A stretch of DNA of 64,000 bases from Cymbomonas tetramitiformis (Eukaryota; Chlorophyta; Pyramimonadophyceae; Pyramimonadales; Pyramimonadaceae): NCBI GenBank assembly GCA_001247695.2, contig LGRX02028936.1:1-64000 (forward strand), given 5' to 3'. Shown here piece after piece: positions 19,459-59,631 of this stretch. The translations under genes were made by a program, and so were the position numbers. Each line of letters starts with the position of its first letter. Position 1 is the first letter of the stretch. The notes below the pieces were generated by a model, which saw nothing but the letters and a program-made list of their open reading frames with translations, was not told the origin of the DNA and searched no databases.

Positions 19459-20850
19459 ATGGCCGAAGTAGCAGAAATACCAGCTATTAATGCAGATCCA
19501 TCTACCTGGTTCTTTGACATCTTAGGCTCATACGATGCCTTCAGTCGGTTTAAGATACCCAAATGGCTTACTGGTTACGCTGATACCCAGACCAGATTCG
19601 ATGAGATAGGGTATTTCGACCACATCAGTCGTATGAAACCCGACATGAGTAGATACAAAGACCCTGAGACAGAACCACGGGAGCCAGACGAAGATTATAC
19701 AGAGGATCATGCTCCACCAGTATTCACAGACCTTGACGATGATCATTTACCTCATTTAGCACCAGCTCCATCCGCATTGGTTCCAAAGGTGAAAATGGCT
19801 CCACCTAAGGAATATAAGGCAGGACAGGATGCTGAGATTTGGTTGGATACAGTGGATAGACACTTCCAGTTTACCTATCCAGGTGTGCCAGACAAGGATC
19901 TTGTTACAGTCTTCCTGACACTCATTCAGAACAATGACAGACATTATTTTCAGGTCGTGGCCAAAAAGCCAGATGCCACGTTTGAAGGTATCAGAAGGAC
20001 ATTCCTCAATCAGTTTGGTAATCCACACAAAAGATCAGTAGCCAAAAAGCATCTTATGGCACTGAATCAGGGAAACCAGACCTTTGCAGATTATCTCCGC
20101 ACGTTCACATTACTGGCTGCATTAGCATCAGTTGATCTGGATGATGTTTTGATAAAGGACAGATTCATCAGCAATATGGAATCAGATCTTCGCAAACAGT
20201 TTCGCCTCAGATATCTAACAGAGGACGAAAGGAATAATCTGTCGTGGGCACAAACCACACAGATCCTGCTCGATTTGAATTATGTTGTTCATTCGAAGCA
20301 GTCAGAGACCCTTCACTATAGGGGGCAAAAGGAACAGTCAGGAGGCCCAGTCAGAAAAGACAAGGACAAAGGCCGTGGCAGAAAGCCATATGACAGATCC
20401 AATCGGAATCAGAATCAGAATGGCAATCAAAATCAAAATGCCAATCAGAATTCCCAAAGGAATAAAGGGAAAGGAGGAAAAGGCAAAGGCAAAGGAAAAG
20501 GGAAAGGAGCAGCAGCAAATCCTCCTCAGCCTTGCCAACGTTGTGGTCGTACCAATCACGTCACAAAGGATTGTTTCTCCACCAGGACACCAGAAGGAAA
20601 AGCTATAAAAGGCAATCCTCCAGCTCAGAATCCATACAGAGGACAGCAGCAACAGAATAATCAGGGTGCTAAGAACGAGTCTAACAAACTTGTGAAAACA
20701 ATCAACACCCTGGTTAAGGAGCTACAGAATCAGCAGAGCATCAATGCAGCAGTTGCAGCTCCAGCTCCAGCTCCAGCTTCAGCTCCAGCTCCTCAGGGAA
20801 ACTCTCAGGGTACTGCACAGGTACCAGTGTTGAGAGCACCCCGAGGATAA
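19459..20850 (+). CDS. gag: Chr-1 Gag
   Basis: This intact 463-residue frame starts at an ATG after the leader. The N-terminal two-thirds is the capsid-like region (DAEIWLDTVDRHFQFTYPG, then LRTFTLLAALASVDLDDVLI and KQFRLRYLTEDERNNLSW). A Lys/Gly/Asn/Gln-rich linker follows, then a retroviral-type zinc knuckle, CQRCGRTNHVTKDC (C-x2-C-x4-H-x4-C), at about residues 358-371. The C-terminus is a Pro/Ala repeat. It packages the element RNA into cytoplasmic particles. Pol follows in a different frame that is already open before the gag stop, so a -1 shift near 20825-20850, or loss of an original fusion, links the two. Confidence 0.9.
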   Translation: MAEVAEIPAINADPSTWFFDILGSYDAFSRFKIPKWLTGYADTQTRFDEIGYFDHISRMKPDMSRYKDPETEPREPDEDYTEDHAPPVFTDLDDDHLPHLAPAPSALVPKVKMAPPKEYKAGQDAEIWLDTVDRHFQFTYPGVPDKDLVTVFLTLIQNNDRHYFQVVAKKPDATFEGIRRTFLNQFGNPHKRSVAKKHLMALNQGNQTFADYLRTFTLLAALASVDLDDVLIKDRFISNMESDLRKQFRLRYLTEDERNNLSWAQTTQILLDLNYVVHSKQSETLHYRGQKEQSGGPVRKDKDKGRGRKPYDRSNRNQNQNGNQNQNANQNSQRNKGKGGKGKGKGKGKGAAANPPQPCQRCGRTNHVTKDCFSTRTPEGKAIKGNPPAQNPYRGQQQQNNQGAKNESNKLVKTINTLVKELQNQQSINAAVAAPAPAPASAPAPQGNSQGTAQVPVLRAPRG

Positions 20851-23800
20851 ATCAGCCTGAAGATGCCACTGAAGCAAGTGGCCGGGTTGAGAGTATCTCG
20901 GAAGAAGTCCTTTCCAGTCTGATATTACAGTTTCAGCAGATGGATACTCCCTCAGAGCACATCGCACAGATGCAGTCTCAGACATCACAGCTGAAATCAC
21001 AGAAGAAGCTGTTGTTGTACAAAGGGAAAGTATATGGACAGAGTACTCATATATTGGTAGATCCAGGAGCTACATCGTCTTTTATCGACAGACAGTTCGC
21101 TTCTCAGCTTGGTATATCACCAACAGATTCCTCATCATTCTCAGTGGGATTGGCTGGAGGAAGCCAACTACCCTGTACATCCTATCTTCCCAATGCTACA
21201 TTCACGCTGGGTAAGTATAAGGATACAGAAGAGTTCTACATCATTGATATGAAACCTTTCACAGTTATCCTGGGACAGGATTGGTTGGAGAGAAGAAATC
21301 CACACATTGACTTCCAGTCCAAGAATATGACGATCACTAGGAAACATTCATCAGGTTCCAGTGTTCGTACAGTTCTGTCCAGAGTTGAACAGACTCCAGG
21401 TTCAGATGACCTTCCTGAAATGGAATTGGTCAGTGCCACCACTATGAGAAAGCACCTACGTCGTATACGATCCAGTGGTTCGGCTGAAGAAGCCGTAGCT
21501 TATCTCTTTTTTCTCTCAGAGGTCGATGGTGAACTGGTCATGACAGCAGCAGACTCAGACACCACTATGGAAGACCCAAAGGTCACAACAACACGTGATC
21601 TAATGAGGGAAGACTTTTCAGATATTTTCCAGGAGGATCTTCCAGCTGGCCATAGGCCAGAACGGTTTGAAGGTGGATATCATCGCATCAACAAAATTCA
21701 TTGAACTTGGGCATAAGCCACCATCACAACCAGTTCGTACTATTCCAGTGCCTATGATGGAGGAGCTCAAACGACAGATCATCAAATATGTCGAACTGGG
21801 TATCCTTCGTCCGTCATCATCACCATATGGATGTCCAATCATTTTCGCTCCTAAGCCAGGGGGGAAGTGGAGGAACGTGTTGTGATTATCGAGCCCTTAA
21901 TAACATCACTATAAAGGACACGTATCCATTGCCACCTCACGACACCCTTCTTTACAGCTTAAAGGTGCACGATGGTTTAGCAGATTTGACTTCAATCAGT
22001 TCTTCCATCAGATTCCTATACACCCAGATGACATTCACAAAACAGCGATACGTACCAGATACGGTTCCTATGAGTGGACAGTAATGCCTTTCGGGTTAAC
22101 TAACGCTCCTGCAACCGCTCTACGTGTTGGAAATCGAGCATTCTTTGACTTCATCGATCAGTTCTTGGTCATTTTCATGGATGACACCATAGTGTACAGT
22201 CCAGATTTTGACAGCCACGTGAAGCATGTTCGACAGTTCTTACAGCGCTGCAGAGATCATCAGTTCTACATCAGGCCTTCTAACAAAGGTTGAGTTGTTC
22301 GTCAGATCCATCGATTTTATCGGACACCATATCTCTGAGGCAGGCCTATCCATCCGTCATCGAAGACAGAATCCGTGCAGTCATGGCTATTCAGCCTCCA
22401 GTGTCGTATGGTCCAACCGTTGGTAAACAGCCTCTACGCCGTATGGCTAAAGATGGCAAGTCATCTCTTCGGTCATTTTTGGGCATGGTCGGTCAGTTTA
22501 GAAGATTCATACCAAAGTTCTCCAAGATTGCCGAGCCGCTCAATCGTCTCCTTAAAGATAATGCAGAGTTTGTCTGGGAATCTGAGCAGCAGCAGGCATT
22601 TGATAACCTCAAAAGTGCCATCTGACATGCTCCAGTACTACAGCTTCCAGATCAGAAACTGCCATCTATTATGGAGGTCGATGGATCAGGCACACACGTT
22701 GGTCAAGTGGTATTACAGGATCAAGGAAAAGGTATGAAGCCATGTGGCTATCACAGCGTCACTCTTTCTGATACACAAAGACGTTGGCCTATTCCTGAGA
22801 TCGAGCTATTTGCCATTGTGGAGGGCTTCCGATTCTTTCGCCACATCTTGCTGGGAGCTCCTGAGACTATTGTTCGCTCAGATCATCAGCCACTGGTTTA
22901 TTTCCAGTCCAAATCCACACTAAGCCCCAATCAGACGAGGTGGTTGGATGAGCTCTCCGAGTACAACTTCCGAATAGAGCACATTTCTGGCGAAAAGAAT
23001 AAGGTTGCAGATGCACTCACCCGTATTTCTACACTCTTTGAACTCACTGATAGTCTGAAACATATAGACATCACCGAGGTTCCAGTCATTGACATACCGT
23101 CTACAGATTCTACATTCATTGCTCTTATATCTTCATCATCAGCTCATCAGCTTCACGACATTATTATATCTCAGTATGATCGTGACACATTTGCACAGAC
23201 TATATTATCTAAGCTTGCATCATCGACATCATCACAATCAGTCAGCAATTTCGAGCTCATTCAGGGGTTGATCTATCGCAAGACCATATATGGCAGCCAG
23301 CTTTACATTCCACCAACTGCCAAAGTTCCTACAGATGACGGTGAGATCACACAGCTTCGCCACATTCTACTTCATGAGTGCCACTCAGCCACTATTTCTG
23401 GTCATGTAGGCAAAAATCGCATGCTTCATCTATTGCGTAGCCGATATTATTGGCCAGGAATGACGATGGCAGCCATTCAGTACATTCGGGAGTGCCCCGT
23501 GTGTCAACGCCAGAAAATGAGGAGACACAAACCTTATGGTCAGTCACATATACGATATTGTGTGCCTAAGACAAAATGGCTTGATGTATCTCTTGACTGG
23601 ATTACTGACCTGCCTATCACTACTAATGGGCACGACAGTATATTTGTGGTAATGTGCCAATTCTCTCATCGTTGTCATTGCTCTCATTCCCTTCAGCATG
23701 ACCTGGACTGCTCAGCGTACTGCTTCAACATATATGCAGCATATCTTCAAGCTCCATGGTCTTCCGAGGAACATCATCTCAGATCGAGACCCCAGATTTA

Positions 23801-23924
23801 CTTCTACATTCTGGCAAACACTGTGGAAATCTACTGGTACGAGATTGTCTATGACGTCTTCACACCATCCACAGTCGAATGCAAGCAATGAGAGGAGCCA
23901 TGCCTTCATTGAGGACATCCTCAG

Positions 23925-29309: not shown

Positions 29310-30394
29310 TGTCCACTACCCGGTCTTGGGTACATCACGATGTACCCAAGCCACTCTTTGTTCCGCACGCCATGGCGAGCTCGAAACATTTCAAGTGTCC
29401 ATATGGCCGATATAGGTTGTCAATAACACACCAATCTTGGGTATGAACCATATGTTTGGCGGTATTCATGTCATAGACATGGGTTTTTGGGGGCGGTTGC
29501 CTAGGTGATTTTCGAGAAAAGACGAAATTCTCAAGTTCTAAATTCTTGGGTACATCGCTTGGGTACATCGATTTGTATGCATGGTTATGCACATGAAAAT
29601 TGCATATTTGGTCGATGTTTCATTAGGGCATTAACATAGACCCTTCAAAGCACTTATTTTATCATGGGTCGGTCCCATACCGCACAAGTTATCATACTTC
29701 ATCATCAAGACTTCTCATCATAAAACAGTGTCAGATTTTAGATTTCGCCTAAAAAAATGCGCGCGGACATGTTTGATGACACCCCCCCCCATCGATCTAT
29801 TGAACGAAGGCATATTTACATGTGCAATGCATGTTATCGCAAATACGATTGCCAAAGAATGAGCTGACAAATATTTTTGGTCATAATAATCAATATCACA
29901 GGTCACCTTCAACCGCTCGCGTCGACTCGTCCCCATACCCGATAAGCGGTACCTCGTGCCGTGCGGCAAGTAAGCAGTTAAGCTTGGGGATCTAGGGTAC
30001 GCCGAACATGACGAGAATAAATTAATTAAGATATTGTGGTGTAACAAACCTTAAAAAGTATTCCACTTTGTGAAGAATCCCCCCCCTAAGATATGCGAGA
30101 CTGTGAAAAAGGCGAGTCGCAACAAACCGTGGTAAAAAAAACAATTAGAAAAATGTTTTTGGGAGCCAAGTTGCGATTTGCATGGGTTTGAATGCACCTG
30201 ACATGATATATATCCTACCAGGATGCTTGTGACGGCATATTCCCGTGTTCATGATGATGTTGGCTAGCTATATTGATGATTCGTAACGACAAACCGTTAA
30301 ATTTATGCCCCCATACCGTCGATTTAGCTTGGGTACATCCCTATGTACCCAGACCCTCTTGGGTACATCCCCATGTACCACCGGGTAGTGGACA
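29310..30394. mobile_element. 1.1-kb TIR element with palindromic TTGGGTACATC subterminal repeats
   Basis: The terminal inverted repeats are TGTCCACTACCCGGT. A 4-bp duplication, CCTG, lies at 29306-29309 and 30395-30398. Just inside both ends are copies of TTGGGTACATC facing each other (29324-29350 and 30329-30378), with more at 29548-29570. No transposase is visible; the longest ORFs are under 110 codons. Excision with the 4-bp TSD restores the TG-D1 frame, which supports the boundaries. Superfamily unknown. Confidence 0.8.
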
Positions 30395-30975
30395 CCTGGC
30401 TTGCCCGTAGGCTTGCCCGTAGCCGGAGTCGGCCATGTAGTCGTCGGCTCGTCGTGCGCATCCTCGTCGGAGAGCGTCGCAAGAACTTTGTTGGCGGCGT
30501 CGATGTGGAATTGAAACTCTTTGATCAGGGCTTTCACGTCAACGTCGGACGGCAGACCAGAGTACAACACATTGGACTTGTCCACGAAGGGCACGTGCCT
30601 GCTCCTGCCGGCGTTGGCATCCCAAATCTCGAGGACGTGGGCGTAGATGTCCTCGAGCTCGACCTTGGCCAACTCAACGTCGAGACGAAGCGGGGTAATG
30701 ACCTTGTCGTAGAACTCGGGGTCGAGAGAAGCCAGAAGCTGCTTCTTGGCCATCATGTCGTCGAGAGGCCCAGAGGCGCCGTTGCCAATAGCAGTCAGGC
30801 ATGCGTCGAAATCTTGGATAAGGGGGTCGGGGTCCTTCTTGTCGTCGAAATAAATGGAGCATAGCTCCTCGTAATGCCCAAGAGGTCGAACCACGCGAGG
30901 GATCAACCTCTTGGTGACCTCGAGAAGAGCACGCTTGCCATCCTGAGGCGAAGCCCGTCCCGAGGCCTCAACCCA
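30395..30975 (-). pseudogene. TG-D1 gag-like protein, middle segment
   Basis: The frame encodes the family signature WVEASGRASPQDGKRALLEV, then HYEELCSIYFDDKKDPDPLI and a helical region (MMAKKQLLASLDPEFYDKVI). It is cut at the N-side by the CACTA-like element and at the C-side by the TIR element. It continues in frame with 33567-33134 and 29305-28192. Equivalent TG-C1 residues are about 225-400. Confidence 0.85.
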
Positions 30976-31386
30976 CACATTATTTCTACGGTGCGGCAGC
31001 CGCTGCCCCACGCGAGGGCCTCTTCGCGCCATGTCAGGGCGATGACTTGCCCACGCTCAGCCCAAGCTAGGCACAAGATATGCCCAGGCTAGGCCCAGGT
31101 TAGGCCCAGGTTAGGCCCAACGCAAGCCCTGAGTTGCCGCTTTCATTGGCCCTCGCTGCGTCTTTCGAGGAGGTTAGGAGGTTCCACCAATGATCGACCA
31201 CGAGCTGCCGATATATCCGCGGATCCGAAAAGCAAATCTGGAATCGAATCTGCCGTTTCCCGATATTCAACGCGGATGAATACGTGGCACATTGTGGCAG
31301 TCCGATCAAAACATTTGCTACGGCCAAAATCGCTCCTCACCCCATAATCTATGACGATGACGATGACACCCGAATGGTGTCATGGC

Positions 31387-31478
31387 ATAATGATTAGGTT
31401 AAACACGGCCAGTGTCGGCTTTTACAGAATCGTGTCCGTTTTTGCAATTCCTGTCCGTTTTTGCAGTTCTTAACAGTG
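31387..31478 (+). repeat. Left 92-bp terminal inverted repeat
   Basis: It is about 97% identical to the complement of 32640-32731. It contains two copies of TGTCCGTTTTTGCA (near 31453 and 31470) and ends TTAACAGTG, roughly 50 bp before the ATG of the ORF, so it may also supply the promoter. Confidence 0.85.
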
Positions 31479-31526
31479 GTGTGTGTTTTTTTCAACTTGC
31501 AACTTTCCAACCGCGATACGCACGAT

Positions 31527-32429
31527 ATGCCTAAGCGCAAGTTTAAGCACGAAAACTTGAATGACGCTGAGATGATGGCTTTGCAAACGTCACAGCGATC
31601 CCAACGACGGACTCGTGATTCTCATGAAGCGAGTTTCATGAATAGCCCATCCGCCTTTCATGAGTGCGTGGAAGTTGAATACCTCCCCGCCATCAAGCCA
31701 ATGAACAAAGAATGGACACGGAAAATATTTGATGATGTTCACGCGGATAAAGAGGTACGAGTAAAGCGCACTGTTGTTCCAAAAGAACAAGTGGCTTTAC
31801 TCGTAGACAGCTTTAATCCGACGAACTTTATGCACGAAAAGAAGATCAAAAGCCGAACATTTGTCGACTTGTTTGCCGCGGGTTCCGAGATAAATCTAAA
31901 CTTGAAACCAGTTTTAGAAAGTCGTTTCGGAAAGGCCGAATTCAAGTTTATTTCAGTGGATAGTGACACTCAAGCAAAAAATGTGAAGGGCTGGGTCCCT
32001 ATGAACATCTTCCGTGTGCACGACAACTGGAAAGTGTTGGGTCAAAACGTCATTTGTGCACCGCCTACAAGTGGAATGAGTGACGCGGCTATCATGTACT
32101 TCGCAGAACACTGCAAGGATTTCTGCGCGTTTTTGGTGCCAGACATGTGGCTTGCTGACCGTGCCTATCCACTTCGACGAATGTGGTGGGCGAAAAAGCA
32201 AGAAGACAAGCTCATTTACGAGCTCGAGGGTGTTCAAGGCATGCGCTGGATTGTGTGTGTGAAAGAGAAGCGCAAAGGCCAAGATCTCTTCGCAAAGACT
32301 GGTGTGCAACTAAGTGCTAAGCCAGCAATGAAAAAAGCTTACGCCGAACGCAAGCAGGAAGCACTAGAAAGCGCTCCTAGTGATGGTGGAGATGCTCTTG
32401 AGGTTGCTTTGAGGAATGATGCTGCATAG
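31527..32429 (+). CDS. Putative SAM-dependent methyltransferase-like protein encoded by a TIR element
   Basis: The ATG at 31527 gives 300 residues; the frame is open a little further upstream but without another ATG. The N-terminal 60 residues are basic and polar (PKRKFKHEN, SQRSQRRTR). From residue 111 the pattern resembles a Rossmann-type methyltransferase: TFVDLFAAGSE (112-121) like the DLFAGxG SAM-binding motif, FISVDSDTQAKN (141-152) like strand 2 with its acidic residue, and NVICAPPTSGMS (174-185) where adenine methylases have (D/N)PP(Y/F). Hydrophobic strands follow (AFLVPDMWL, RWIVCVKEK). The APP replaces the classic acidic or Asn residue, so activity is uncertain. An N6-adenine methylase relative is the best guess; this comes from motif reading, not from a search. 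Confidence 0.5.
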   Translation: MPKRKFKHENLNDAEMMALQTSQRSQRRTRDSHEASFMNSPSAFHECVEVEYLPAIKPMNKEWTRKIFDDVHADKEVRVKRTVVPKEQVALLVDSFNPTNFMHEKKIKSRTFVDLFAAGSEINLNLKPVLESRFGKAEFKFISVDSDTQAKNVKGWVPMNIFRVHDNWKVLGQNVICAPPTSGMSDAAIMYFAEHCKDFCAFLVPDMWLADRAYPLRRMWWAKKQEDKLIYELEGVQGMRWIVCVKEKRKGQDLFAKTGVQLSAKPAMKKAYAERKQEALESAPSDGGDALEVALRNDAA

Positions 32430-32639
32430 ATGCTAGCGATACAAGGTCTCTCGGTAGGAACGCATGTAACATGGAACATACAACGACACGTATCTCATAT
32501 CATAGAAGTACATAATTTGAATTATGCACATATCGATGATATTATTGTACCGTGTATGCGTGACGGAATGCGTGTGCGTGTGAAATGCTTTGTGTTATGC
32601 TCGAATTTGTCTTTGGACGGAGTGTATATTTGTTGTTGA

Positions 32640-32731
32640 CACTGTTAAGAACTGCAAAAACGGACGGATTTTGCAAAAACGGACACGATTCTGTAAAAGC
32701 CGACACTGGCCGTGTTTAACCTAATCATTAT
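32640..32731 (-). repeat. Right 92-bp terminal inverted repeat
   Basis: It starts CACTGTTAAGAACTGC and ends CTAATCATTAT, the complement of the left repeat. It lies 210 bp after the stop of the methyltransferase-like ORF. Confidence 0.85.
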
Positions 32732-33133
32732 CATGGTCAACCGACGCAGTCATGCGATGCTCGTTGTCATCGCGACACCCCCCCCCCACTTCGTATGTTT
32801 TAAAGTTATAATCACGATCTCCGAATTCGCCTGCCAGGTCAAAGCCATCGCAGCACGAACATTGGTGCACAGTTGTTCATGTGCGATGTTGGATTTTGTA
32901 AGATTATCTGCTGTGATAAAGATCTTAGGATGCATGGAGCGTCATTGGTGCTTTCGCCCATCTTGGGCCCAGCGACCAACCATTTTACGCCCCTACGTTC
33001 ACCTTCCTTGGGAGAGTCTTGGGAGAGTCTTGGGAGAGACGAAGGGACATGTCGGGCGCATCGTGGATGTATCACCGATGCACCATCGGTGCACCTTGGG
33101 GTCAGAGGTGCGCCGCACGCTAGAAATAATGTG

Positions 33134-33567
33134 CAACGTCGTGCGGGTGAATTAGGAGAAGTCAACGAAGTCAAAGTCGAGAAGAGGATGGCGTTGAAGA
33201 TGGTGTTGACCTCTTTCGTCGTGTCCGCCAAATAAAAAAGAGCGGCATTGTTGGGGTCCTTCTGCTCGAACGCGCGCTGCAAGGACTTCACAATGGACGT
33301 CCAGAGCGTGTTACGGCGTACTTCGTCTCCATGAAAGGTGTCCTCCTTGGAGCCCAAGGCGTCGCGAGAGATTCTCTTGATGGTGTCGACGTCCCAAGTA
33401 GAATTCTGGACAGCCGCAGCTCGAGTCCGGTCCGGAGCCGTGAGGGTGACACCCGGAGAATTTGGCGTCGGTCTATAGCGAGACCTGACGTCGCGTGAAA
33501 AAATCGTGTCTAGTCGAATGCGATTGTTGGCCCCCAAGGGAGGCGTGACGTGAGAGTTAACACTCAT
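33134..33567 (-). pseudogene. TG-D1 gag-like protein, N-terminal segment
   Basis: It starts at the ATG at 33567 (MSVNSHVTPPLGANNRIRLD) and runs to ...NSPARR at the CACTA-like insertion. It is clearly related to the TG-D2 fragment at 880-1425 (WDVDTIKRISRDALG against WDVDVVKRVAKDTLG; NTIFNAILFSTLTSLTSPNSPAR against the matching block). Codons past 33134 in the same open frame belong to the inserted element. It continues in frame at 30973. Confidence 0.85.
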
Positions 33568-42306: not shown

Positions 42307-43039
42307 TTAGCCTTCATAGGCAGCTATCATGTCTGCTGCATTGGTCAGCTCTGTGGCTTTGACCCAGGTGTCATGCTCGGGGCCGTAGCCTGCATATCGC
42401 ACTAAGTAGTACTTGACACCTCTAGTGATCTTATCTGAGAGTATGTGTGATATCTCAAACAGTGGTTGCCCTTCTTCGGTGATCATCTGTGGCAGAGGCA
42501 AAGGTGCTTGGATCGAGTCGTTATACAGCTCTATTCTGGATACGCAGGCTGTACCGGATGGATACGGATATCGAGATCCCCGAAATCTAACTCGTATGCA
42601 CGCCCATGGCTTAGCACTTTGGATATGGTAAACGGCCCAATATATGGCTGCTTGAAGTGTCTGCCTGCCTCTGTCAAACCAATCCATTGGATAAACTCGG
42701 TCCGTAAAAGAACTTTCTGCCCTACTGCATATTGCCGGGGCATGTGAGTCTTATTGAATCTGGCTTGGCTAATTTCTGCTGCTCGGGAAATGTTGTCTAC
42801 CGCGTTGGCATGTACAGCCGAGTACTGGTCAAAATGATCTCGAATAGCATTCTGTATTGGAACAGGAGCTTCTGGCGGAATAGTGATTGCCAGGTCATGA
42901 GGCGAAAGTGGCTGCGCCATCGAGTCGAGATAGAATGGTGAATAACCAGTAGTTGCAGAAACTGTGTTGTTAATGGCAAACTCCACCAGAGGCAACTTGT
43001 CCTCCCACGAATTGGCTGAAGTATCATTGCAACAACACC
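42307..43039 (-). pseudogene. pol: Chr-2 Pol: integrase C-terminal part and chromodomain
   Basis: On the minus strand the frame resumes after TG-B2 with the second integrase exon (LPLVEFAINNTVSATTGYSP, then VGQKVLLRTEFIQW and KQPYIGPFTISKVLSHGRAY). It shifts frame near 42545 (HPVQPAY against HPVPPVSR in Chr-1) and ends with the chromodomain (VKYYLVRYAGYGPEHDTW...AAYEG, stop at 42307). The Gln codon before KVLLRTEF is intact here, whereas Chr-1 has a stop. Confidence 0.85.
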
Positions 43040-43298
43040 TACTGGAATATCCCGGTTCAAGATATCAGACAGTCAGTGAACCAATATAGATAAACTCGTA
43101 TAAGAAATAAACCCTAAGCTAGATATACCCGGAACGGTCACGGAGTCGGAACGGTCTCGAGTCTAGCTACCTGTGACACTCGGTGTGTCACAGCACAGGC
43201 TTACGGATCAGTCACGGTCCAGTGTTGGCTACCTAGGAATCTGTCATAGGGGCCTGCACCGGGACTCCCGGTCAGGGCTGCCTATACAGATTTCAGCA
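43040..43298 (-). repeat. TG-B2 3' LTR
   Basis: This 259-bp repeat runs TACTGGAATATCCC...GATTTCAGCA on the plus strand and is followed inside by CACCACCCC, the polypurine tract complement. It is about 80% similar to the TG-B1 LTRs by eye. Confidence 0.9.
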
Positions 43299-43621
43299 CA
43301 CCACCCCAGCACTGTGGGTGGTGACTGACAGGTAAGTCAGAGAAGTTAAGATAAGTTAGGGTAGGAGCTAGGGTGACAAACCTAACTGCTAATCCAACTG
43401 TGCTATTCTGATACACAAATTGAAACCCTCTAGCTAGCACAAGTGCAGAAACCTACGGGTAAGGAGCTCCCGCTAAACAACTGAAAGGCACTGTGTAAGC
43501 AAACCAAATTGAAGATTGTAGATGTCAAAGCAAAGCATAAACCAAATTGAAGACCACGTTGAGGTCAAAGTACATCTCAGCACACCACCAGAGTGGTGTA
43601 CTGCCAGAGCCAGAAGGAAAA

Positions 43622-44506
43622 CTACTCGGGGTCAAAGTTCAGAGGGGCACCGTCACCACAATGTCCACGGTAGTAGCTTGCAGCACTGCTCTCCAGTGGG
43701 TCAGGCGGCCGGTGAACCACCGTCGTAGCACCCAGGGAGTGCAGTACTGCATCCATAGTGACGGGGTCCAGCTCGGAAATACCAGGGTAGATGCATAAAT
43801 CCCCTCTGCACAGCACAGGCTGCGGTGCAGCCCGACCCGATACCTGCACAGAGCCGATGTCATTGGCCGCCGTGTAGGCGGCAGCCCCCACACCCATGAT
43901 CGAGATGAAAAGAATGAGGGAGATAAAGTAAGGAAACCCCCACGGGCCCGCGTGTGCGGGGAAGCCCCATGGCGGCTTGCCACATCCGTAGGTGCGGGAA
44001 GCACCACCAGACTCGGGCACGTGGGCTGCGGGCTCTGACGCATGATTGGCCGAGATGGCCGGAGCCCGCGGCTTGACGGCGAAGCTGCCGTCTGCAAAAT
44101 CCTCGTAGTCGTCGGTGTCGTAGTTGGAAGTAGGGTCGGGGTTCGTAACAGCCGGTGATCTAGCCGTCGGCGTGTTGCGAACCGCGTCCGTCAGCCTCAA
44201 CGAGGCGTCAATGTCGGAGTCCCTCGTGAGGGACCTCTTCGCACGTGTGTGAACAACCATATCTCTGAAAGCCTGATGGGAGGTGGTACGCTGGGGCGCG
44301 TAAGGGTAATGGCGTGGGGAAAATGCGACGTCACAGTTACGTAAGGAGCGGTAGAGCCATGCGAGCGAGGGGCACTGGAAGACGTCGTCGAGGTCGAAGG
44401 TGCTGCAGACACCAGCCCAAGAAGCGGTAGCATGCTGGGCCAAGGCAAGAACTATACCGTAAAAGGACATTGCGCCAACGAAGCCCGGCCCAGGTCGAAT
44501 CCCCAT
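43622..44506 (-). CDS. TG-B2 protein: gag N-terminus fused to C-terminal membrane region
   Basis: The ORF has 294 codons from 44506; the similarity-based start is the internal Met of MVVHTRAKRSLTRDSD. After DASLRLTDAVRNTPTA (like DASIRLLDAVRDTPTA in TG-B1) the sequence jumps to NYDTDDYEDFADGSFAVKPR, which in TG-B1 comes after the zinc finger. Thus the gag core and finger are missing. A hydrophobic segment (FPYFISLILFISIMGVGAAA) follows and then about 85 residues. With no core it probably cannot assemble by itself; the conserved ends may reflect cis signals in the RNA. Confidence 0.75.
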   Translation of the reverse strand: MGIRPGPGFVGAMSFYGIVLALAQHATASWAGVCSTFDLDDVFQCPSLAWLYRSLRNCDVAFSPRHYPYAPQRTTSHQAFRDMVVHTRAKRSLTRDSDIDASLRLTDAVRNTPTARSPAVTNPDPTSNYDTDDYEDFADGSFAVKPRAPAISANHASEPAAHVPESGGASRTYGCGKPPWGFPAHAGPWGFPYFISLILFISIMGVGAAAYTAANDIGSVQVSGRAAPQPVLCRGDLCIYPGISELDPVTMDAVLHSLGATTVVHRPPDPLESSAASYYRGHCGDGAPLNFDPE

Positions 44507-44658
44507 AGCGGCGGCTCAAAGACGCACTTACAAACTGCTCATCTCAAACTTCCCACTCGTACCCAAACGCGCCGTTGCGCACCACCTCTCAAAGCGGCTG
44601 TTTTAGCCAATCATGGCCAAATTAGCTGTGGAATATAGCGTGGAATGGGTCCACGACC

Positions 44659-44917
44659 TACTGGAATATCCCGGTTCAAGATATCAGACAGTCAGTGAAC
44701 CAATATAGATAAACTCGTATAAGAAATAAACCCTAAGCTAGATATACCCGGAACGGTCACGGAGTCGGAACGGTCTCGAGTCTAGCTACCCGTGACACTC
44801 GGTGTGTCACAGCACAGGCTTACGGATCAGTCACGGTCCAGTGTTGGCTACCTAGGAATCTGTCATAGGGGCCTGCACCGGGACTCCCGGTCAGGGCTGC
44901 CTATACAGATTTCAGCA
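44659..44917 (-). repeat. TG-B2 5' LTR
   Basis: This 259-bp repeat partners 43040-43298. On the minus strand it is followed by GGTCGTGGACCC and, about 40 nt on, GGCCATGATTGGCTAAAA, the conserved leader motif of the TG families. Confidence 0.9.
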
Positions 44918-44921
44918 ACAC

Positions 44922-44999
44922 CTGTGGATGAAAAAGTATTATCTAATCAGTTTATAAACCAGAGGATGGTGAATATCGAATCGACAAATTGAAAAGTAC
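44922..44999 (-). other. Intron-like 78-nt interruption of integrase in Chr-2
   Basis: Minus strand: CCTCAG|GTACTTTTC at 45000/44999 and CCACAG|GTGTTG at 44922/44921. Removing it joins EDIL-R to CCCNDTSANSWEDK in frame; unspliced it contains stops. The same segment, also about 78 nt, is in Chr-1 at 23925-24002. TG-B2 is inserted four bases into the downstream exon. Confidence 0.7.
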
Positions 45000-46863
45000 C
45001 TGAGGATATCCTCAATGAAGGCATGGCTCCTCTCATTGGCTGCATTTGACTGTGGATGGTGTGAAGACGTCATAGACAATCTCGTACCAGTAGATTTCCA
45101 CAGTGTTTGCCAGAATGCAGAGGTGAATCTGGGGTCTCGATCTGAGATGATGTTCCTCGGAAGACCATGGAGCTTGAAGATATGTTGCATATATATCGAA
45201 GCAGTATGCTAAGCAGTCCAGGTCATGCTGAAGGGAATGAGATGACAGCGATGAGAGAATTGGCACATTACCACAAATATACTGTCGTCCCCATTAGTGG
45301 TGATAGGCAGGTCAGTAATCCAGTCAAGAGATACATCAAGCCATTTTGTCTTAGGCACACAATATCGTATATGTGACTGACCATAAGGTTTGTGTCGCCT
45401 CGTTTTCTGGCGTTGACAAACGGGGCACTCCCGAATGTACTGGATGGCTGCCGTCGTCATTCTTGGCCAATAATATCGGCTACGCAGTAGATGAAGCATG
45501 CGATTTTTGCCTACATGACCAGAAATAGTGGCTGAGTGGCACTCATGAAGGAGAATGTGGCGAAGCTGTGTGATCTCACCGTCATCTGTAGGGACCTTGG
45601 CTGTAGGTGGAATGTACAGTTGTCTGCCATATATGGTCTTGCGATAGATCAACCCCTGAATGAGCTCGAAGCTGAAGCTGCTGACTGACTGTGATGAAGT
45701 CGATGATGTCAGCTTAGCCAATATAGTGTGTGCAAATGTGTCACGATCATACTGGGATATAATGATGTCGTGAAGCTGATGAGCTGATGAAGAAGATATA
45801 AGAGTAATGAATGCAGGATCTGCAGGTGGCATGACTGGAACCTCCGTGATGTCTATGTGTTTCAGACAATCAGTGAGTTCAAAGAGTGTAGAGATACGAG
45901 TGAGTGCGTCTGCAACCTTGTTCTTCTCGCCAGAAATGTGCTCTATTCGGAAGTTGTACTCGGAGAGCTCATCCAACCACCTCGCCTGTTTGGGGCTTAG
46001 TGTGGATTTGGACTGGAAATAAACCAGTGGCTGATGATCTGAGCGTACAATAGTCTCAGGAGCTCCCAACAAGATGTGGCGAAAGAATCGGAAGCCCTCC
46101 ACAATGGCAAATAGCTCGATCTCAGGAATAGGCCAACGTCTCTGTGTATCGGAGAGAGTGACGCTGTGATAGCCACATGGCTTCATACCTTTTCCTTGGT
46201 CCTGTAGTACCACTTGACCAATGTGTGTGTCTGATCCATCGACCTCCATAATAGATGGCAGTTTCTGATCTGGAAGTTGTAGTACTGGAGCATTGCAGAT
46301 GGCACTTTTAAGGTTATCAAATGCCTGCTGCTGCTCAGATTCCCAGACAAACTCTGCATTATCTTTAAGGAGACGATTGAGCGGCTCGGCAATCTTGGAG
46401 AACTTTGGTATGAATCTCCTAAATTGACCGACCATGCCAAAGAATGACCGAAGGGATGACTTGCCATCTTTAGCCATACGGCGTAGAGGCTGCTTTCCAA
46501 CGGTAGGACCATACGACACTGGAGGCTGTATTGCCATGACTGCTCGGATTCTGTCTTCGATGATGGATAGGCCTGCTTCAGAGATGTGATGTCCGATAAA
46601 GTCTATGGATCTGACGAACAACTCCACCTTGGAAGGCCTGATGAAGAACTGGTGATCTCTGCAACGCTGGAGGAACTGTCGGACATGACTCACGTGGCTG
46701 TCAAAATCCGGACTGTATACAATAGTATCATCCATGAAAATGACAAGGAACCGATCGATGAAGTCGAAGAATGCCCGATTTCCTACACGTAGAGCTGTTG
46801 CAGGAGCATTGGTCAATCCGAAAGGCATAATTGTCCACTCATAGGAACCGTATTCGGTGCGAA
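45000..46863 (-). pseudogene. pol: Chr-2 Pol: RT C-part, RNase H and integrase
   Basis: On the minus strand from 46863 the frame gives EYGSYEWTIMPFGLTNAPAT, FLVIFMDDTIVYSP (RT active site), RNase H (SDHQPLVYFQSKS, KNKVADALTRI), the integrase zinc domain (HECHSATISGHVGKNRML, CPVCQRQKTRRHKPYG) and the core start WLDVSLDWITDLP. A single TAG near 45210 replaces CAG of Chr-1. The frame then continues MQHIFKLHGLPRNIISDRDP and NAANERSHAFIEDIL to the intron-like segment. This stretch is otherwise open for over 1.6 kb and is the best preserved pol in the window. Confidence 0.9.
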
Positions 46864-48494
46864 CACACTTCTCGCCGACCGGTCAACGCATGCACCTCTT
46901 CGAAAAAATTACAGCCGCCATATTTGTTTTATTATCGCGATAATTTTATGATAATGAGTGGCAACTTTTTCCTTCGTATGGTTTTATTACTATATTTTTC
47001 AGGTGTATTTTGATACGCGTTTTGAGACGAGCAGAGTTCAGTATGGTTCAAAAATCTGGTCGTAAAAATCAGCCGACTGAACCGCTTTTTGCGAGCCTTG
47101 AGATTCAGCTGAGACAGGTGTTGGGAGGTGTTACATCGGCCTTACACATGTTGAAAATTTCAAAAGGGAAGTATGCCACACTTTCGAGTGAGTTTGCGCG
47201 CGCTCAGCTAGTGGAATCCCCCTTTCGACGCTCACTGACTCGCAAGTTTTGACGAAAAATCTGCTCGAGGCCATCAAGCTAGTGGAAACGAAAGCGCAAG
47301 CGACAGTTGCCACAGCAGAAAGGGCCCTCATCTCAAATAAGAAAAGTGGAGAATCTGAGCGCGCTCAGGAGGCTGTGGGAACCACATCTTGTAAGGGTCC
47401 CAGCGCAAAAACACTCCGACGCAAGCAGCTTCGTTCATCACGCAGGGAAAAGGAACGCGCTGAAAAAAGTGACACAGAGCCAACAGTCGCTACCCCAATG
47501 TGCGTGAAAACGCCTTCGCAGAATCTGAGCTCAGACATGCTGGTAGAAACTTGCGCATCGCCAGTTGTTAAGTCAGAAGAAGCTGAACTAGTGACACCAG
47601 CTGCCACTTCTTCCATCGTGGCCTTAGGGCCTAAGTCCACTGGAAAGAAAAGAGCTAAGGGTAGCACTGGGGAAAAAGGCAATCGAAAGAACCCCAAGGC
47701 AAAGAGGTTGTTCACATGGAAGAAGGAAGAATCTAGAAAGCGCTCAGAATCAGTGCCTGCCGCTGACAAGCACGTTCCCACATCTCTGCAGCGCTCGACT
47801 TCACTTAGCCCTGAGGGGTGAACCATGTTCACAGTTTACGGCCGATAAATAACTTGGGGCAGAGGAGACTCTTTTATCAGACACTTTATTTGCTGCAGGA
47901 GGGGCATCACGATACGCCCACTTGTGGAATCGCACGTCTCGTTCCTCTTGCAATCTTTATTCAGTGCCAACATTTAATCAAGCCGCTTTTCCCACGAAGG
48001 TTTTTTCAGCGGCTTAATCTGTGTTGTATTTGCGGTGAGAGGATCCAGAGGACCCGTGGGCCCGCGGGATACGGCTTACCGAAATCCTATGAACCATCAG
48101 GTGGACTGCATAGGATCCCACACAACACCCTAGACACCGCCTGGAAGATTGATGGCTGTGTTTACCGCGCTCGTTGCTGTTTAAAGTAATCCTGTACAAT
48201 GCCCAGACAGATACATAGACTGCTTAACCGGGTGGGGCAACTCCCTCCTGTAACTGAAGTCGGGGTTGAGACTGTACCACTTGCATCTGAAGTATAGGAA
48301 TACTGTTTAGTCCCTGCCGAAGGACTTCAGTAATGGGACGGCCGACCGAAATGTAGACCGGGTTCCCTGCTCTATTCGTAGGTGCAAAACAGATCATACT
48401 TTCCTAATAGCGGTGGGGTGTGGAAAGGGAAAGGCTCCCTTTATAATCCAACCCACACCAGTAAAAATGGTGTCTTTATTTTATTTTTTTATTT
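46864..48494 (+). mobile_element. LINE-like or other retroposon insertion in Chr-2 RT
   Basis: It interrupts the RT frame between the codons for TAIRT and EYGSYEW. The 8-bp GGTGCGAA is present at 46856-46863 and 48495-48502. There are no inverted or direct terminal repeats, and the right end is an AT-rich tail (TTTATTTTATTTTTTTATTT), as expected for target-primed retroposition. The left 1 kb encodes a basic protein and the right 0.65 kb is non-coding with a hairpin (ATCCTATG...CATAGGAT near 48085-48117). No RT is present, so it is non-autonomous or 5'-truncated. Confidence 0.65.
47043..47821 (+). CDS. Basic, coiled-coil-like protein of the retroposon (possible ORF1)
   Basis: Two overlapping frames follow each other: 47043-47252 (from the ATG of MVQKSGRKNQPTEPLF; the frame is open from 47010) and 47249-47821. 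A one-base indel near 47247 probably separates them, since the second continues at once with helical LLEAIKLVETKAQATVATAE. The product is rich in Lys, Arg, Ser and Glu (RRKQLRSSRREKERAEK, KKRAKGSTGEKGNRKNPKAK), with no known domain. A nucleic-acid-binding ORF1-type protein is a guess from composition and from position in a retroposon. Confidence 0.4.
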
Positions 48495-48502
48495 GGTGCG
48501 AA

Positions 48503-49698
48503 TAGCTGTTTTGTGAATGTCATCTAGATGTATAGGGATCTGATGGAAAAACTGATTTGAAGTCAAATCTGCTAAACCATCGTGCACCTTTTAGCTGTTC
48601 AAGAAGGGTGTCGTGAGGTGGCAATGGATACGTGTCCTTAATTGTGATGTTATTAAGGGCTCGATAATCACAACACATCCTCCACTTCCCACCTGGCTTA
48701 GGAGCGAAAATGATAGGACATCCATATGGAGATGATGACGGACGAAGGATACCCAATTCGACATATTTGACGATCTGTCGTTTGAGCTCTTCCATCATGG
48801 GCACTGGTATGGTACGAACTGGCTGCGATGGCGGCTTGTGCCCGGGTTCAATGTTGATTCGATGATAACCACCTTCAAACCGTTCTAGCCTATGACCAAC
48901 TGGAAGATCCTCCTGGAATATATCTGAAAAGTCTTCCCTCATTAGATCACGTGCTGTTGTGACCTCTGGGTCTTCCATAGTGGTGTCCGAGTCTGCTGCT
49001 GCGAAGACCAGTTCACCATCGACCTCTGAGAGAAAGAAGAGATAAGCTACGGCTTCTTCAGCCGAACCACTGGATCGAATACGACGTAGGTGCTTTCTCA
49101 TGGTGGTGGCACTGACCAATTCCATTTCAGGAAGGCCATCTGAGCCTGGAGTCTGTTCAACTCTGGATAGTACTGTGCGAACACTGGAGCCTGATGAGTG
49201 CTCTCTAGTGATCGTCAGATTTTTGGACTGGAAGTCAATGTGTGGATTTCTCCTCTCCAACCAATCTTGACCCAGGATGACAGTGAAGGGTTTCATGTCA
49301 ATGATGTAGAAATCCTCTGTGTCCTTATACTTACCCAACGTGAATGTAGTATTGGGAAGATAGGATGTGCAAGGTAGTTGGCTTCCTCCAGCCAATCCCA
49401 CTGAGAATGATGAGGAATCGGTGGGTGCTATAGCAAGCTGAGCAGCGAACTGTCTATCGATGAAAGACGATGTAGCTCCTGGATCTACCAATATGTGAGT
49501 ACTCTGTCCATATACTTTCCCTTTGTACAACAACAACTTCTTCTGTGATTTCAGCTGTGTTGTCTGAGACTGCATATGTGCGATGTGCTCTGAGGGAGTA
49601 TCCATCTGCTGAAACTGTAATGTCAGACTGGAAAGGACTTCTTCTGAGATACTCTCAACCCGGCCACTTGCTTCAGTGGCATCTTCAGGCTGATTTAC
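48503..49698 (-). pseudogene. pol: Chr-2 Pol: protease and RT N-part
   Basis: On the minus strand the frame opens before MDTPSEHIAHMQSQTTQLKS and includes protease LVDPGATSSFIDRQFAAQL, a linker, and RT blocks PPSQPVRTIPVPMMEELKRQ, SSPYGCPIIFAPKPGGKWRM and DYRALNNITIKDTYPLPPHD. A one-base insertion near 48558 (CTTCAAATCAG where Chr-1 has CTTCAATCAG) shifts the frame 55 bp before the retroposon. Up to there it is fully open, unlike Chr-1. Confidence 0.9.
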
Positions 49699-49813
49699 CT
49701 TGGGGGTGCTCTCAACACTGGTACCTGTGCAGTACCCTGAGAGTTTCCCTGAGGAGCTGGAGCTTAAGCTGGAGCTGGAGCTGCAACTGCCGCATTGATG
49801 TTGTGCTGACTCT

Positions 49814-51049
49814 TTAGCTCCTTAACCAGGGTGTTGATTGTATTGATGAGTTTGCCGGACTCATTCTTAGTACCCTGATTCTGTTGCTGTTGTCTCCTGA
49901 AAGGATTCTGAGCTGGAGGCTTGCCTTGTATGGCTTTTCCATCTGGCGTCTTGGTGGAGAAACAATCCTTTGTGGCGTGATTGGTACGACCACAACGTTG
50001 GCAAGGCTGAGGAGGATTTTGTGCTTTTCCTTTCCCTTTACCTTTGCCTTTTCCACCTTTCCCTTTGCTCCGATTCTGATTGACATTTGGGTTCTGATCC
50101 TATTGGATCTGTCATATGGCTTTCTGCCACGTCCCTTGTCCTTCTCCTTTTTGACTGGGCCTCCTGATGACTGCTCCTTCTGCCCCCTATAGTGTAGGGT
50201 CTCTGACTGCTTTGAATGAACAACGTAATTCAAGTCGAGCAATATCTGTGTGGTTTGTGACCACGACAGATTATTCCTTTCATTCTCCGTTAGGAATCTT
50301 AGGTGGAACTGTTTTCGGAGATCAGGATCCATGCTGTTGACAAATTTGTCCTTTATCAACACATCGTCCAGATCAACTGTTGCTAGTGCAGCCAGTGACG
50401 TGAACGTGCGTAAATAATCTGAGAAAGTCTGGCTCCCTTGAGTCAGTGCCATTAGGTGTTTCTTAGCCACCGATCTCTTATGGGGGTTGCCAAACTGACT
50501 GAGGAAAATCCTTGTGACCTTCTCATATGTGGCATCTGGTTGTTTTGCCACGGCCTGGAAATAATGTCGGTCATTGTTTTGGATAAGCGTCAGGAATACT
50601 GTGATCAGGTCCTTGTCTGGAACTCCTGGATAAGTGAATTGGAAATATCTATCCACGGCTTCCAACCAAATCTCTGCGTCCTGTCCTGCTTTGAATTCCC
50701 TAGGTGGTGTCATTTTCACCTTTGGAACCAAAGTGGGTGGAGCTGGTGCTGGAACAGGATCATCATCAGGATCTGTGAAAACTATTGGAGCATTATCTGC
50801 TGTATACTCATCTTCTGGTTCCTGTGGTTCATTCTCAGGATCCCTATATCTGCTCATGTCGGGCCTCATGCGACTGATATTGTCGAAGTACCCTATCTGG
50901 TCGAATCTGGTCTGGGTATTTTCATAACCAGCGAGCCACTTGGGGATCTTGAACCGACTGTATGCATCGTAGGAACCTAAGATGTCAAAGAACCATGTTG
51001 ACGGATCTGCATTGATGGCTGGGATATCTGATTCTTCTGCTTCTGCCAT
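49814..51049 (-). pseudogene. gag: Chr-2 Gag with a frameshift before the zinc knuckle
   Basis: From the ATG at 51049 the frame matches Chr-1 Gag (INADPSTWFFDILGSYDAYS ... NNLSWSQTTQILLDLNYVVH) as far as GRGRKPYDRSN. A one-base deletion near 50100 then moves translation to another frame for the last 100 or so residues. The zinc-knuckle codons (CQRCG, NHATKDC) are still readable in the original frame near 49965-50010. A recent break in an otherwise well-kept gag. Confidence 0.85.
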
Positions 51050-57174: not shown

Positions 57175-59631
57175 CTAAAAGAGGTCAGGGGTCCCAGGCG
57201 GCTCAAGCGGTGGCACATTGTCAGCCAACCAGAAACCCTGAGCCGGGTTCACCGAATCAACAAAATCATTCGTAAAGTAAAATGACGGAGTCTCCCAATC
57301 GAGATCACCACCAGGCGAAGGCATCTCCGTAGCCGATGCAGAAGCTGACACAGCAGAAGCCGTGGAAGCCGAAATAGCTACACCTGCAAAAGAAATGCAG
57401 AAGAGGGAAAGCGCCGCGAGAGCCCCGATTGCCGGCTTGCCAAAGCCGAAAGGCGGCACACCGCACCCGACAGTACCGGCCGGAGCCCGCGGCTTCACCG
57501 CGAAAGTCCCGTCCGCGAAATCCTCGTAGTCGTCCGTGTCATAGCCTGTCATGTCAGACGGGTGGACGGCGGCGTGATTAACCGTCTGCACGAAGCCTCC
57601 GAACTCACCGCATGTCGCCTCCGTGGTGGTCACCCGCGCCGATTGAGTTGGCGCGGGCTCCACATCCTCCATTTGCGAGACAGGCATAGCAGGGGCCGGC
57701 ACGGCGGACGCCAATGCCGCCGCACCACCTGCCGGAACCTGCCCCTCCGGTGTGATCCCCACCGCAGCGGCAGGGCCACACACCAGAGCCGATGCATGCC
57801 CCTCCGCTCCGCTCCCAGGAATGAAAGATGCGTGGGTAAAATGTACTTTGTCTTGGGCGGCCTGAACCTCAGAGGTGAGGGCATCAAGCCGCCGCAAGAT
57901 GTCCTCGTCGTCGGTCCCGCCAGAAGGCGGAGGCGGCACGGAGAAACCGTAGGCCGCCACGTCGATCCCACCGACGCCGTCCGTGGAGAGCACCGCGGGC
58001 GGACCATACGCCAACACCGCATGCGAGAATGCCTCCGGCCCGACGTCTGCCGCGTCCTGGAAGACCTACACGAGCGCCAGTGCGTGCAGGCCCTCCGCGT
58101 CCTCCTGCTCAATGGGAATGCAGAAAGCCGCGGCCGTGGCTGGCGAGTGTTGGCGACCGCCAAACGGGCAGTCGCGGTACGGGTGATACACCTCACCCTT
58201 ACCGGCCTTGCGGCAGCGGTGGCACAGCGGCTTCGCCTTCATGCCGTCGCGGTCGAAGCCAACCGCGGGGGGGTTGTCTGCACCCACGCGAAACCCCCTC
58301 GGATGTTGCTTCTCCCGATGCCGCGGCTGCGTCTGCTGTCCCCCGCCCGCACGGCCACCACGCACCAAGGCCTTTAAGGCCGCAATCTCCTCGAGGAGCA
58401 CCGTGTACTCCGACGACGTGACCAGAGCGGAGGGCTTACCGTCCGTCCCCAGCACCTGCTTCTCACGTGCTGCCGCCCCATCGTCCGACTGAGCCCATGC
58501 CTGGAAGATTGCCACGACGAGAGCCTAAAGCGAGCGGAGAGTGACCCCGCCGAGGTCACCCGCAAGCGGATAACGCACCTTCACCGCCGCGTAGAAGATA
58601 GGGTCGAGACGGTTGTACAGCGAGAGCTTGCGGGTCTCGTCGGTGGGCCGCCAATCAGGAGCGCGGTTATCCCGCACCAGACGTTGTTCACGAGCCAAGA
58701 TCGGCTGCGGTTCAACGCCTGCGGGATAACGAAGAGCCGCGTGCTCCTGTTGGTGGCTCTCGCGTAGGGCTGCCGGTACGCTCCCCTTGATGATGTCAAT
58801 GAGAGCCCGACGTCCATCTCGGTCAGCCGAAGAGTCCGTACCCCGAAGCCAGGTGTAAGCCACAGAGTTCCGCTCCACGACGAGGGCCAAGACGTCATAG
58901 AGGAGCCCATTAACCCTCTCGATAACCAGAGAGGCGGGGTCGTCGAGGTCAAAGGGGGCCAAGTCCAGCCCAGCGGACTGAAACTCGGTCCGAAGCTGCA
59001 CCACCAACTCGGAGAGGCGGTCGGCGTCGTCAGTACCACGGTAAGGATGTTTCTTGGAACCAAGGATATCCTCGCGGATACCCTTGGCCCAAGCCCGATG
59101 CAAGCGCCCTTTGTACACCGCGTCAACCGTTGCATGTTGGTCGACCAGGTGCTTCCGCAACGCGATAGCAGTGTCGGTGTTGCTGGAAGCAGCAGGGGGC
59201 ACCACAGGTGGGGTGCTAGCGGTCGGAGTGTCCCGAACCGCATCCAGAAGCCGTATCGAGGCGTCCAAGTCGGAGTCCCTCAACAGGCGTTTGCGAGCTC
59301 GTGTAGATGCTGCCATACTCCTGAAAGCCAGAGAAAAGATGATGCGCGGCTGCACGATTGGGTGTTGTGGCGGAAATGAAGGAAAGGCGTAACGGCAGGA
59401 CGTGCGGAGAGGCGAAACGAGCGTGGGGCACTTGCAGATGTCGTCGTGGTCAAAGGTGTCCGGAGCACCAACCCAAAGTACGTAAACCAGCGGGATCAGG
59501 GTAGGTAAAATAACGTAGATGAACTTTGCCAAAACCGAGCAATAGCAACGCGCGGTGCCCATGACTCGCAGCCGCAAAAGACGCCTACCGTAAAGCCATG
59601 CTCCAAATCCTAGTCGCACCCAAACACGCAA
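57175..59631 (-). pseudogene. TG-B1 gag-like protein (one stop, one frameshift)
   Basis: Minus strand. The frame is open from 59631; the likely start is the ATG at 59316 (MAASTRARKRLLRDSDLDAS). The gag-like core contains HRAWAKGIREDILGSKK, GTDSSADRDGRRALIDIIKG and SLYNRLDPIFYAAVKVRYPL. A TAG near 58525 replaces a Gln codon present in TG-B0. Translation continues VVAIFQAWAQSDDGAA to a finger, CHRCRKAGKGEVYHPYRDC (C-x2-C-x9-H-x4-C), near 58220, then shifts frame near 58020. The last part (57175-58017) has YDTDDYEDFADGTFAVKPR, a membrane segment (GALAALSLFCISFAGVAIS) and a short tail. No enzyme domains. Confidence 0.85.

Follow-up and report, generated by a model that had tools for sequence, protein, structure and literature searches.

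A methyltransferase-like gene between inverted arms in probable non-autonomous transposons of Cymbomonas tetramitiformis

The transposing unit and its insertion site

The sequence analysed in the present study, referred to below as the window, comprises positions 1 to 64,000 of contig LGRX02028936.1 (assembly GCA_001247695.2) of the green alga Cymbomonas tetramitiformis. At positions 30976-33133 of the + strand it contains a transposing unit of 2,158 bp, the only long gene of which encodes a methyltransferase-like protein and is located between two inverted arms. This non-autonomous unit belongs to carrier type A, the types A, A2, B and D being named after their outer transposon ends. Its borders were placed by the shared alignment borders of related loci, by an empty site in locus L013 and by 2-bp target-site duplications (TSDs).

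The ends of carrier A are 22 bp long (CACATTATTTCTA..GTGCGGC). The left terminal inverted repeat (TIR), CACATTATTTCTACGGTGCGGC, occupies positions 30976-30997 on the + strand, and the right one, CACATTATTTCTAGCGTGCGGC, positions 33112-33133 on the − strand. Comparison of loci revealed a CA/CA duplication at 30974-30975 and 33134-33135, and the junctions read ...ACCCA on the left and CAACG... on the right. Locus L013 possesses a related gag-like gene without the insertion found in the window and reads ACCCAACG at the empty site; its sequence CTCAACCCAACGCC corresponds to CTCAACCCA, the element and CAACGTCG in the window. L013 has its own copy of the element elsewhere in its gag-like gene, with a GA/GA duplication. 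The empty site indicates that the window element interrupts a gag-like open reading frame (ORF), the N-terminal part of which is located at 33134-33567 and the C-terminal part at 30268-30975, both on the − strand. The name "gag-like" is a reading of this ORF, neither part of which matches Pfam.

Among the window-type copies fetched from the genome, a 2-bp TSD was found at all 14 carrier A loci where both ends are present, and the duplicated dinucleotides were CA, CC, CA, CG, AA, AA, AA, CG, GA, TA, AA, CA, CA and GC.

The methyltransferase-like gene and its subfamilies

The methyltransferase-like ORF of 300 amino acids occupies positions 31527-32429 on the + strand, with the ATG at 31527 and the stop at 32429. 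A preliminary description, made from the sequence of the window, had noted a single ORF of this length with DLFAAGSE and CAPPTSG motifs and no transposase, and all of this was borne out.

Copies were sought in the C. tetramitiformis assembly, which comprises 851,713,466 bases in 25,745 contigs. With positions 31387-32731 as the query, 40 of 1,104 candidate places were scored, all of them about 99-100% identical to the window (39 over query positions 1-1345, one over 1-1339), and 30 of these window-type copies were fetched. The search thus ruled out that the inverted repeats are unique in the genome, and the family is high-copy and recently amplified. The 300-residue ORF is kept in 30 of the 30 fetched copies, which were the best-scoring ones and constitute a biased sample, so the frequency of intact ORFs is not a population estimate.

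Window-type copies were designated subfamily 1, and two further subfamilies were defined by protein identity to the window ORF. Subfamily 2 proteins are 41-43% identical to the window protein (143 matches; 138 of 869 candidates scored) and subfamily 3 proteins 81-82% identical, the search with the latter giving 130 matches (130 of 814 candidates scored), window-type copies included. Together, the searches with subfamilies 2 and 3 point to at least about 260 genomic places, 13 pairs of matches having been joined as single copies.

Class I S-adenosylmethionine (SAM)-dependent methyltransferases are characterised by a glycine-containing motif I loop after strand 1 and an acidic residue after strand 2. 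In the family described here VDLFAAGS is conserved (VDPFAGGSG in a distant clade), as is a VD after strand 2, so both features appear to be present with the strands placed on a poor structure model. No curated-family match of note was found for the protein in Pfam, NCBIfam, PHROG or PDB sequences, and the PDB sequence search returned nothing below an E-value of 0.18. In a Foldseek search with the low-confidence model, 21 of the 21 matches at E ≤ 0.001 were methyltransferases, and the matches belonged mostly to class I. The poor model and the order of the motifs make a class I SAM-methyltransferase fold the most likely one, and the earlier identification of the product as a SAM-dependent methyltransferase is regarded as probable.

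The catalytic motif IV of DNA amino-methyltransferases, which act on N6 of adenine or N4 of cytosine, reads (D/N/S)PP(Y/F/W). Subfamilies 1-3 have CAPP in the corresponding block and the distant clade has mostly C(A/E/K)PP, with no aromatic residue after PP; the block does not conform to this pattern. The suggestion that the protein resembles adenine methylases is weak because its motif IV lacks both the D/N and the aromatic residue.

Protein searches found relatives only in C. tetramitiformis and in two further contigs, and a scan of IMG/VR for the protein yielded 100 stretches matching a pattern, none of which was confirmed. In three public gene models (P0004, P0006 and P0007) the methyltransferase is fused to a reverse transcriptase or to a gag-like start; these fusions look like annotation artefacts caused by the insertion of the element in retrotransposons.

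When a single subfamily 1 copy was compared with a single subfamily 2 copy, dN was 0.50 and dS 2.35 over 274 codons, dS being near saturation; dN is lower than dS, which indicates that the protein has been constrained in the long term. The 30 window-type copies contain 15 replacement variants on 715 sites and 9 silent ones on 185. A tree-based count on 26 of the 30 fetched subfamily 2 copies (L057, L051, L055 and L058 were left out) gave no sign of constraint, with replacement-to-silent ratios of 35:5 on internal branches (p = 0.10) and 69:17 on terminal ones (p = 0.32). Strong diversifying selection in subfamily 2, striking in pairwise comparison, was not significant on the tree and was rejected.

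The inverted arms

The left arm is located at 31387-31478 (+ strand) and the right arm at 32640-32731 (− strand); the cores kept in other subfamilies are at 31409-31478 and 32640-32709. Each arm is 92 nt long, 88 of the 92 positions are identical, and 1,161 nt lie in between. With no more than 3 mismatches allowed, a 26-nt piece of the arm was found twice in the window against a mean of 0 in 100 shuffles, and each arm contains a sequence close to TGTCCGTTTTTGCA twice, 19 nt apart. Scans of the window against Rfam and of IMG/VR with the arms gave 0 matches.

The preliminary description had taken these repeats for the TIRs of a small element. The repeats are real, but the termini of the element are not there: they are located at 30976 and 33133, as indicated by the TSD and the empty site. 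All 30 fetched window-type copies share sequence outside the arms, at least over 31322-32869, and the 92-bp unit was found in an independent flank in none of these near-identical copies; the arms are internal because the shared sequence continues beyond them. A Tc1/mariner reading, prompted by TA beside the arms, was rejected for the same reason, as the flanks beyond the arms are common to all 30 copies. TCATGG/CATGG as a target duplication of the inner unit was likewise discarded, since the subfamily 3 locus L066 has the same left flank, CATAATGAT included.

Homologous arms accompany the gene in the other subfamilies. They were found in 28 of the 30 fetched subfamily 2 loci, near −229..−158 and +188..+259 around the ORF (no inner arm pair was detected in L036 and L046), and at both fetched subfamily 3 loci, L066 and L067. 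At L066 (C8047:32300-35500) there is, in addition, a 53-bp outer inverted repeat with 94% identity, and foreign sequence of about 0.67 kb is located at the right inner arm of L024. The 70-bp arm cores of subfamily 1 or 3 are 69-84% identical to those of subfamily 2, and those of subfamilies 1 and 3 are 87-97% identical to each other. The shared core does not include the outermost 22 bp of the 92-bp window arms, which are not present in the subfamily 3 arms either; therefore, the apparent ends of the arms are not conserved ends.

Within one copy, the two cores are 98% identical in the window, 89-90% in subfamily 3 and 81-84% in subfamily 2. Same-side arms of different subfamily 2 copies are 91-95% identical, above the value within a copy, which indicates that the arms of this subfamily evolve apart. 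By this comparison, the idea that the two arms of a copy are kept alike does not hold for subfamily 2.

The flanks of the arms match crosswise between subfamilies. The left flank of window-type copies matches the right flank of the subfamily 2 locus L037 in 29 of 30 columns (score 55), and the right window-type flank matches the left flank of L037 with a score of 35; in both cases none of 200 shuffles reached the observed score. The left flanks also match each other without crossing, but more weakly (16 columns, score 20, 0 of 200 shuffles; 1 of 200 for subfamily 3). The simplest reading of these alignments, which involve few copies, is that the segment comprising the gene and its arms may be inverted relative to its surroundings between subfamilies 1 and 3 on one side and subfamily 2 on the other.

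Carriers of the cassette

The cassette that is about 99% alike in carriers A and B occupies positions 31248-32874 (+ strand) of the window, and its part 31322-32869 is also present in three A2 loci. The 30 window-type loci comprise 15 of type A, 12 of type B and 3 of type A2; in one A locus, L028, only the left end was found. The cassettes of A and B are 99.2% identical over 1,627 bp, and otherwise only the inverted repeats match. Carrier B is about 2,370 bp long, and its ends begin CTCAGGACCTGTGAACC; in L006 its TIR matches at 59 of the first 60 bp. A 2-bp TSD was found at 10 of the 10 carrier B loci with both ends, one end having not been found in L018 and L027. The ends of carrier A2 are CACATCATATCTACGGTGC with a CT/CT duplication, and its three window-type loci represent one insertion within a larger repeat. 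This repeated unit, which surrounds L031-L033, is at least 5.9 kb long and has repeats at its left end; in L031:3381-9400 no stop-to-stop frame longer than 141 codons was found besides the methyltransferase.

An outer inverted repeat of type A, A2, B or D was detected at 21 of the 30 fetched subfamily 2 loci, namely 7 of type D (CTCGGGCGCGCTCAACCGG), 4 of type D′, 2 weaker D-like, 1 of type B, 5 of type A and 2 of type A2. A 2-bp TSD accompanies the repeat at 18 of these 21 loci; L055, L058 and L064 yielded none.

Two junctions are informative about how the carriers could have been exchanged. Locus L050 begins with the left part of carrier B and about 61 bp of a window-type arm; an A2 end and a cassette of subfamily 2 come next, and the right part of carrier B follows. 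L059 is built like L050 in carrier A, with the junction 16 bp into the arm, and L060 aligns likewise. Judging by these sequences, an A2 element with a subfamily 2 gene would have entered a window-type arm, and the old cassette would later have been lost by deletion or recombination. Elsewhere, two exact A ends enclose a copy of the window type and one of subfamily 2 that are within 5.6 kb of each other (C5727:6774-12398).

Transposase and elements without the gene

In the window unit (30976-33133) the other frames are at most 145 codons from stop to stop, which leaves room for small or spliced genes. Carriers A (L053), A2 (L031), B (L006) and D (L037) contain no frame longer than 177 codons besides the methyltransferase. 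The stop-to-stop frame scan of five carrier copies did not reveal a transposase of their own, such as an autonomous DNA transposon encodes. Nor does the window unit resemble DIRS1-like elements, in which a reverse transcriptase, RNase H and a tyrosine recombinase stand beside the methyltransferase: there is no second long ORF in 30976-33133.

The exact pattern of the A end gave 104 matches in the genome (48 forward and 56 reverse) and 0 with the reversed control. At least 10 pairs of A ends, 2,425-2,442 bp apart, are located on contigs without a methyltransferase among the matches listed. One such pair, L068, was sampled over 1,401 of its 2,436 bp; this part demonstrates no similarity to the cassette, the window or the proteins compared in the analysis and has no 80-codon frame. 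The gene is therefore optional cargo in at least that element, as far as its sampled part goes. A partial search via the A ends found no autonomous partner. In the middle of an A-end pair 7.4 kb apart, a frame that stays open over at least 381 codons was noticed (L069, C1579:62500-63900); by eye it looks like the RNase H and zinc-knuckle region of a LINE, that is, a nested insertion.

Origin of the element and the role of the arms

It is probable that the window element is a non-autonomous transposon, CACTA-like by its ends only, which carries an orphan methyltransferase cassette passed between transposon families. The 2,158-bp carrier A would have inserted in the gag-like gene with a transposase presumably supplied from elsewhere, its cargo being one methyltransferase-like gene between arms, the 70-bp core of which is recognisable in other subfamilies. 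The cassette seems to be old and now resides within at least four end types (A, A2, B and D). Carriers may have changed when an element with one version of the gene inserted in an arm of an element with another version and what remained of the former cassette was lost, as the two junctions suggest. The protein could modify nucleic acid, or interfere with such modification, to the benefit of the element, and the arms could be sites read by that enzyme, by a regulator or by a recombinase. A bolder proposal, which we hold to be improbable, is that the arm-bounded gene is the module itself: its arms would be recognised by its own product or by a shared recombinase, it would flip, pass between transposon families and mark its hosts, and unrelated families would compete by acquiring the same epigenetic cassette.

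The arms can be read in other ways. If they were the true TIRs of a small transposon that inserted once in an ancestral carrier and has been a passive passenger ever since, the presence of arms around the gene in three subfamilies would be explained, as would a CATGG direct repeat near both arm ends and the fact that the D and A carriers of subfamily 2 share about the arm-to-arm part; a precedent is provided by SPu-1, a TIR element whose single gene encodes a Fanzor protein (PMC3627910). This is nevertheless unlikely, given that the unit stands in an independent flank in 0 of the 30 window-type copies, that homologous stretches lie outside the arms across subfamilies 1, 2 and 3, and that the subfamily 3 arms lack the outer 22 bp. 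A more plausible alternative, although we still incline against it, is that the arms are internal sites for regulation or recombination: they might be paired promoters or operators, targets that the enzyme methylates, or the limits of a segment that can invert. The paired TGTCCGTTTTTGCA-like copies in each window arm, the homologous arms that flank the gene left and right in three subfamilies and the apparent flipping of the segment between subfamilies 1/3 and 2 (scores 55 and 35) are consistent with such sites. However, the short uncrossed match of the left flanks runs the other way, the symmetry of the arms is not kept up in subfamily 2 (81-84%), and ordinary recombination between inverted repeats would also produce flipping.

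The gene raises similar questions. Its product might be a catalytically dead methyltransferase fold acting as a DNA-binding or decoy protein, and a motif IV without D/N and the following aromatic residue would fit this; however, good conservation of the SAM-site region and of the VD after strand 2 would be unexpected in a dead enzyme, and we consider this rather unlikely. There is likewise only a small chance that non-autonomous elements have captured an ordinary gene which plays no role for them. Such capture would agree with the lack of visible constraint within recent subfamily 2 copies and with the existence of an A-ended carrier without the gene. The long-term conservation (dN below dS between subfamilies) argues against it, as do the 30 open copies out of 30 sampled, though these were picked as best-scoring, and the lack of relatives outside Cymbomonas in protein searches, although the distant clade P0011-P0021 may include a host gene.

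Relation to known mobile elements

Transposons of the CACTA/Mirage (CMC) group have CA..TG termini, a 2-bp TSD and a DDE transposase with CMC motifs. Carrier A is similar to them in its CA..TG termini and 2-bp TSD, but it differs in the absence of a visible transposase and in its CACAT rather than CACTA ends, and carriers B and D end in CTCAGG or CTCGGG.

Transposons with DNA-modification enzymes are a growing class. TET/JBP genes are found in many fungal DNA transposon lineages and have spread among them by passive transfer, and one clade of these transposons has CA..TG ends and 2-5 bp TSDs (PMC12730594). The likeness to the Cymbomonas carriers consists in one family of DNA-modification enzymes distributed over several transposon lineages; according to the available text, the fungal lineages are defined by their transposases, and the gene itself has no terminal motifs (PMC12730594). 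In contrast, the Cymbomonas carriers are small and have no transposase seen, and their gene, which encodes a different enzyme, keeps inverted arms.

In algal viruses, SPu-1 is a Fanzor-only element with a 33-bp TIR and a putative TA TSD, and Mariner elements with methyltransferases encode their own transposase (PMC3627910). The one-gene TIR layout of the former and the presence of methyltransferases on the latter resemble the family described here, but the Fanzor protein is unrelated, and the TIRs of SPu-1 are its termini (PMC3627910), whereas the Cymbomonas arms are internal. DNMT genes occur in LINE, DIRS and Gypsy retrotransposons (PMC5890265), and DIRS1 has an MT domain (PMC3266345). These are similar in carrying a methyltransferase of their own on a mobile element with large copy numbers; they differ in having their own machinery and cytosine DNMT or Dam-like domains (PMC5890265, PMC3266345), whereas the Cymbomonas family has no Pfam match.

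The available text of these papers (PMC12730594, PMC5890265, PMC3266345, PMC3627910) mentions no transposase-less element with a methyltransferase between inverted arms as its sole gene. As far as the same text goes, the enzyme in the published methyltransferase and TET/JBP cases can be recognised from its sequence and moves together with a transposase or with the machinery of a retrotransposon. Here, in contrast, small elements in which no transposase is visible have a methyltransferase-like gene as their sole long gene; the family numbers hundreds of copies and occurs with several end types. A literature search, with subscription journals and Repbase outside its reach, found no description of the family. 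The long-read assembly of Cymbomonas contains 68.3% interspersed repeats, unclassified repeats making up 43.6% of the assembly, and the word "methyltransferase" is absent from the main text of the paper reporting it (PMC10675990). Should the enzyme mark DNA, an element that is itself the parasite of a parasite would be able to change the epigenetic state of its helper or its host; base modification in Cymbomonas is accessible to direct sequencing.

Neighbouring retrotransposon sequences

Further ORFs akin to the interrupted gag-like one were found in the window by tblastn at 796-1425, 1942-4362 and 58786-59136. Two sets of retrotransposon ORFs, alike by eye, are located at 19459-23891 (+ strand) and 42531-51049 (− strand) in opposite orientation. 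Their protease- and reverse-transcriptase-like motifs suggest elements that we take to be of the Ty3 type.
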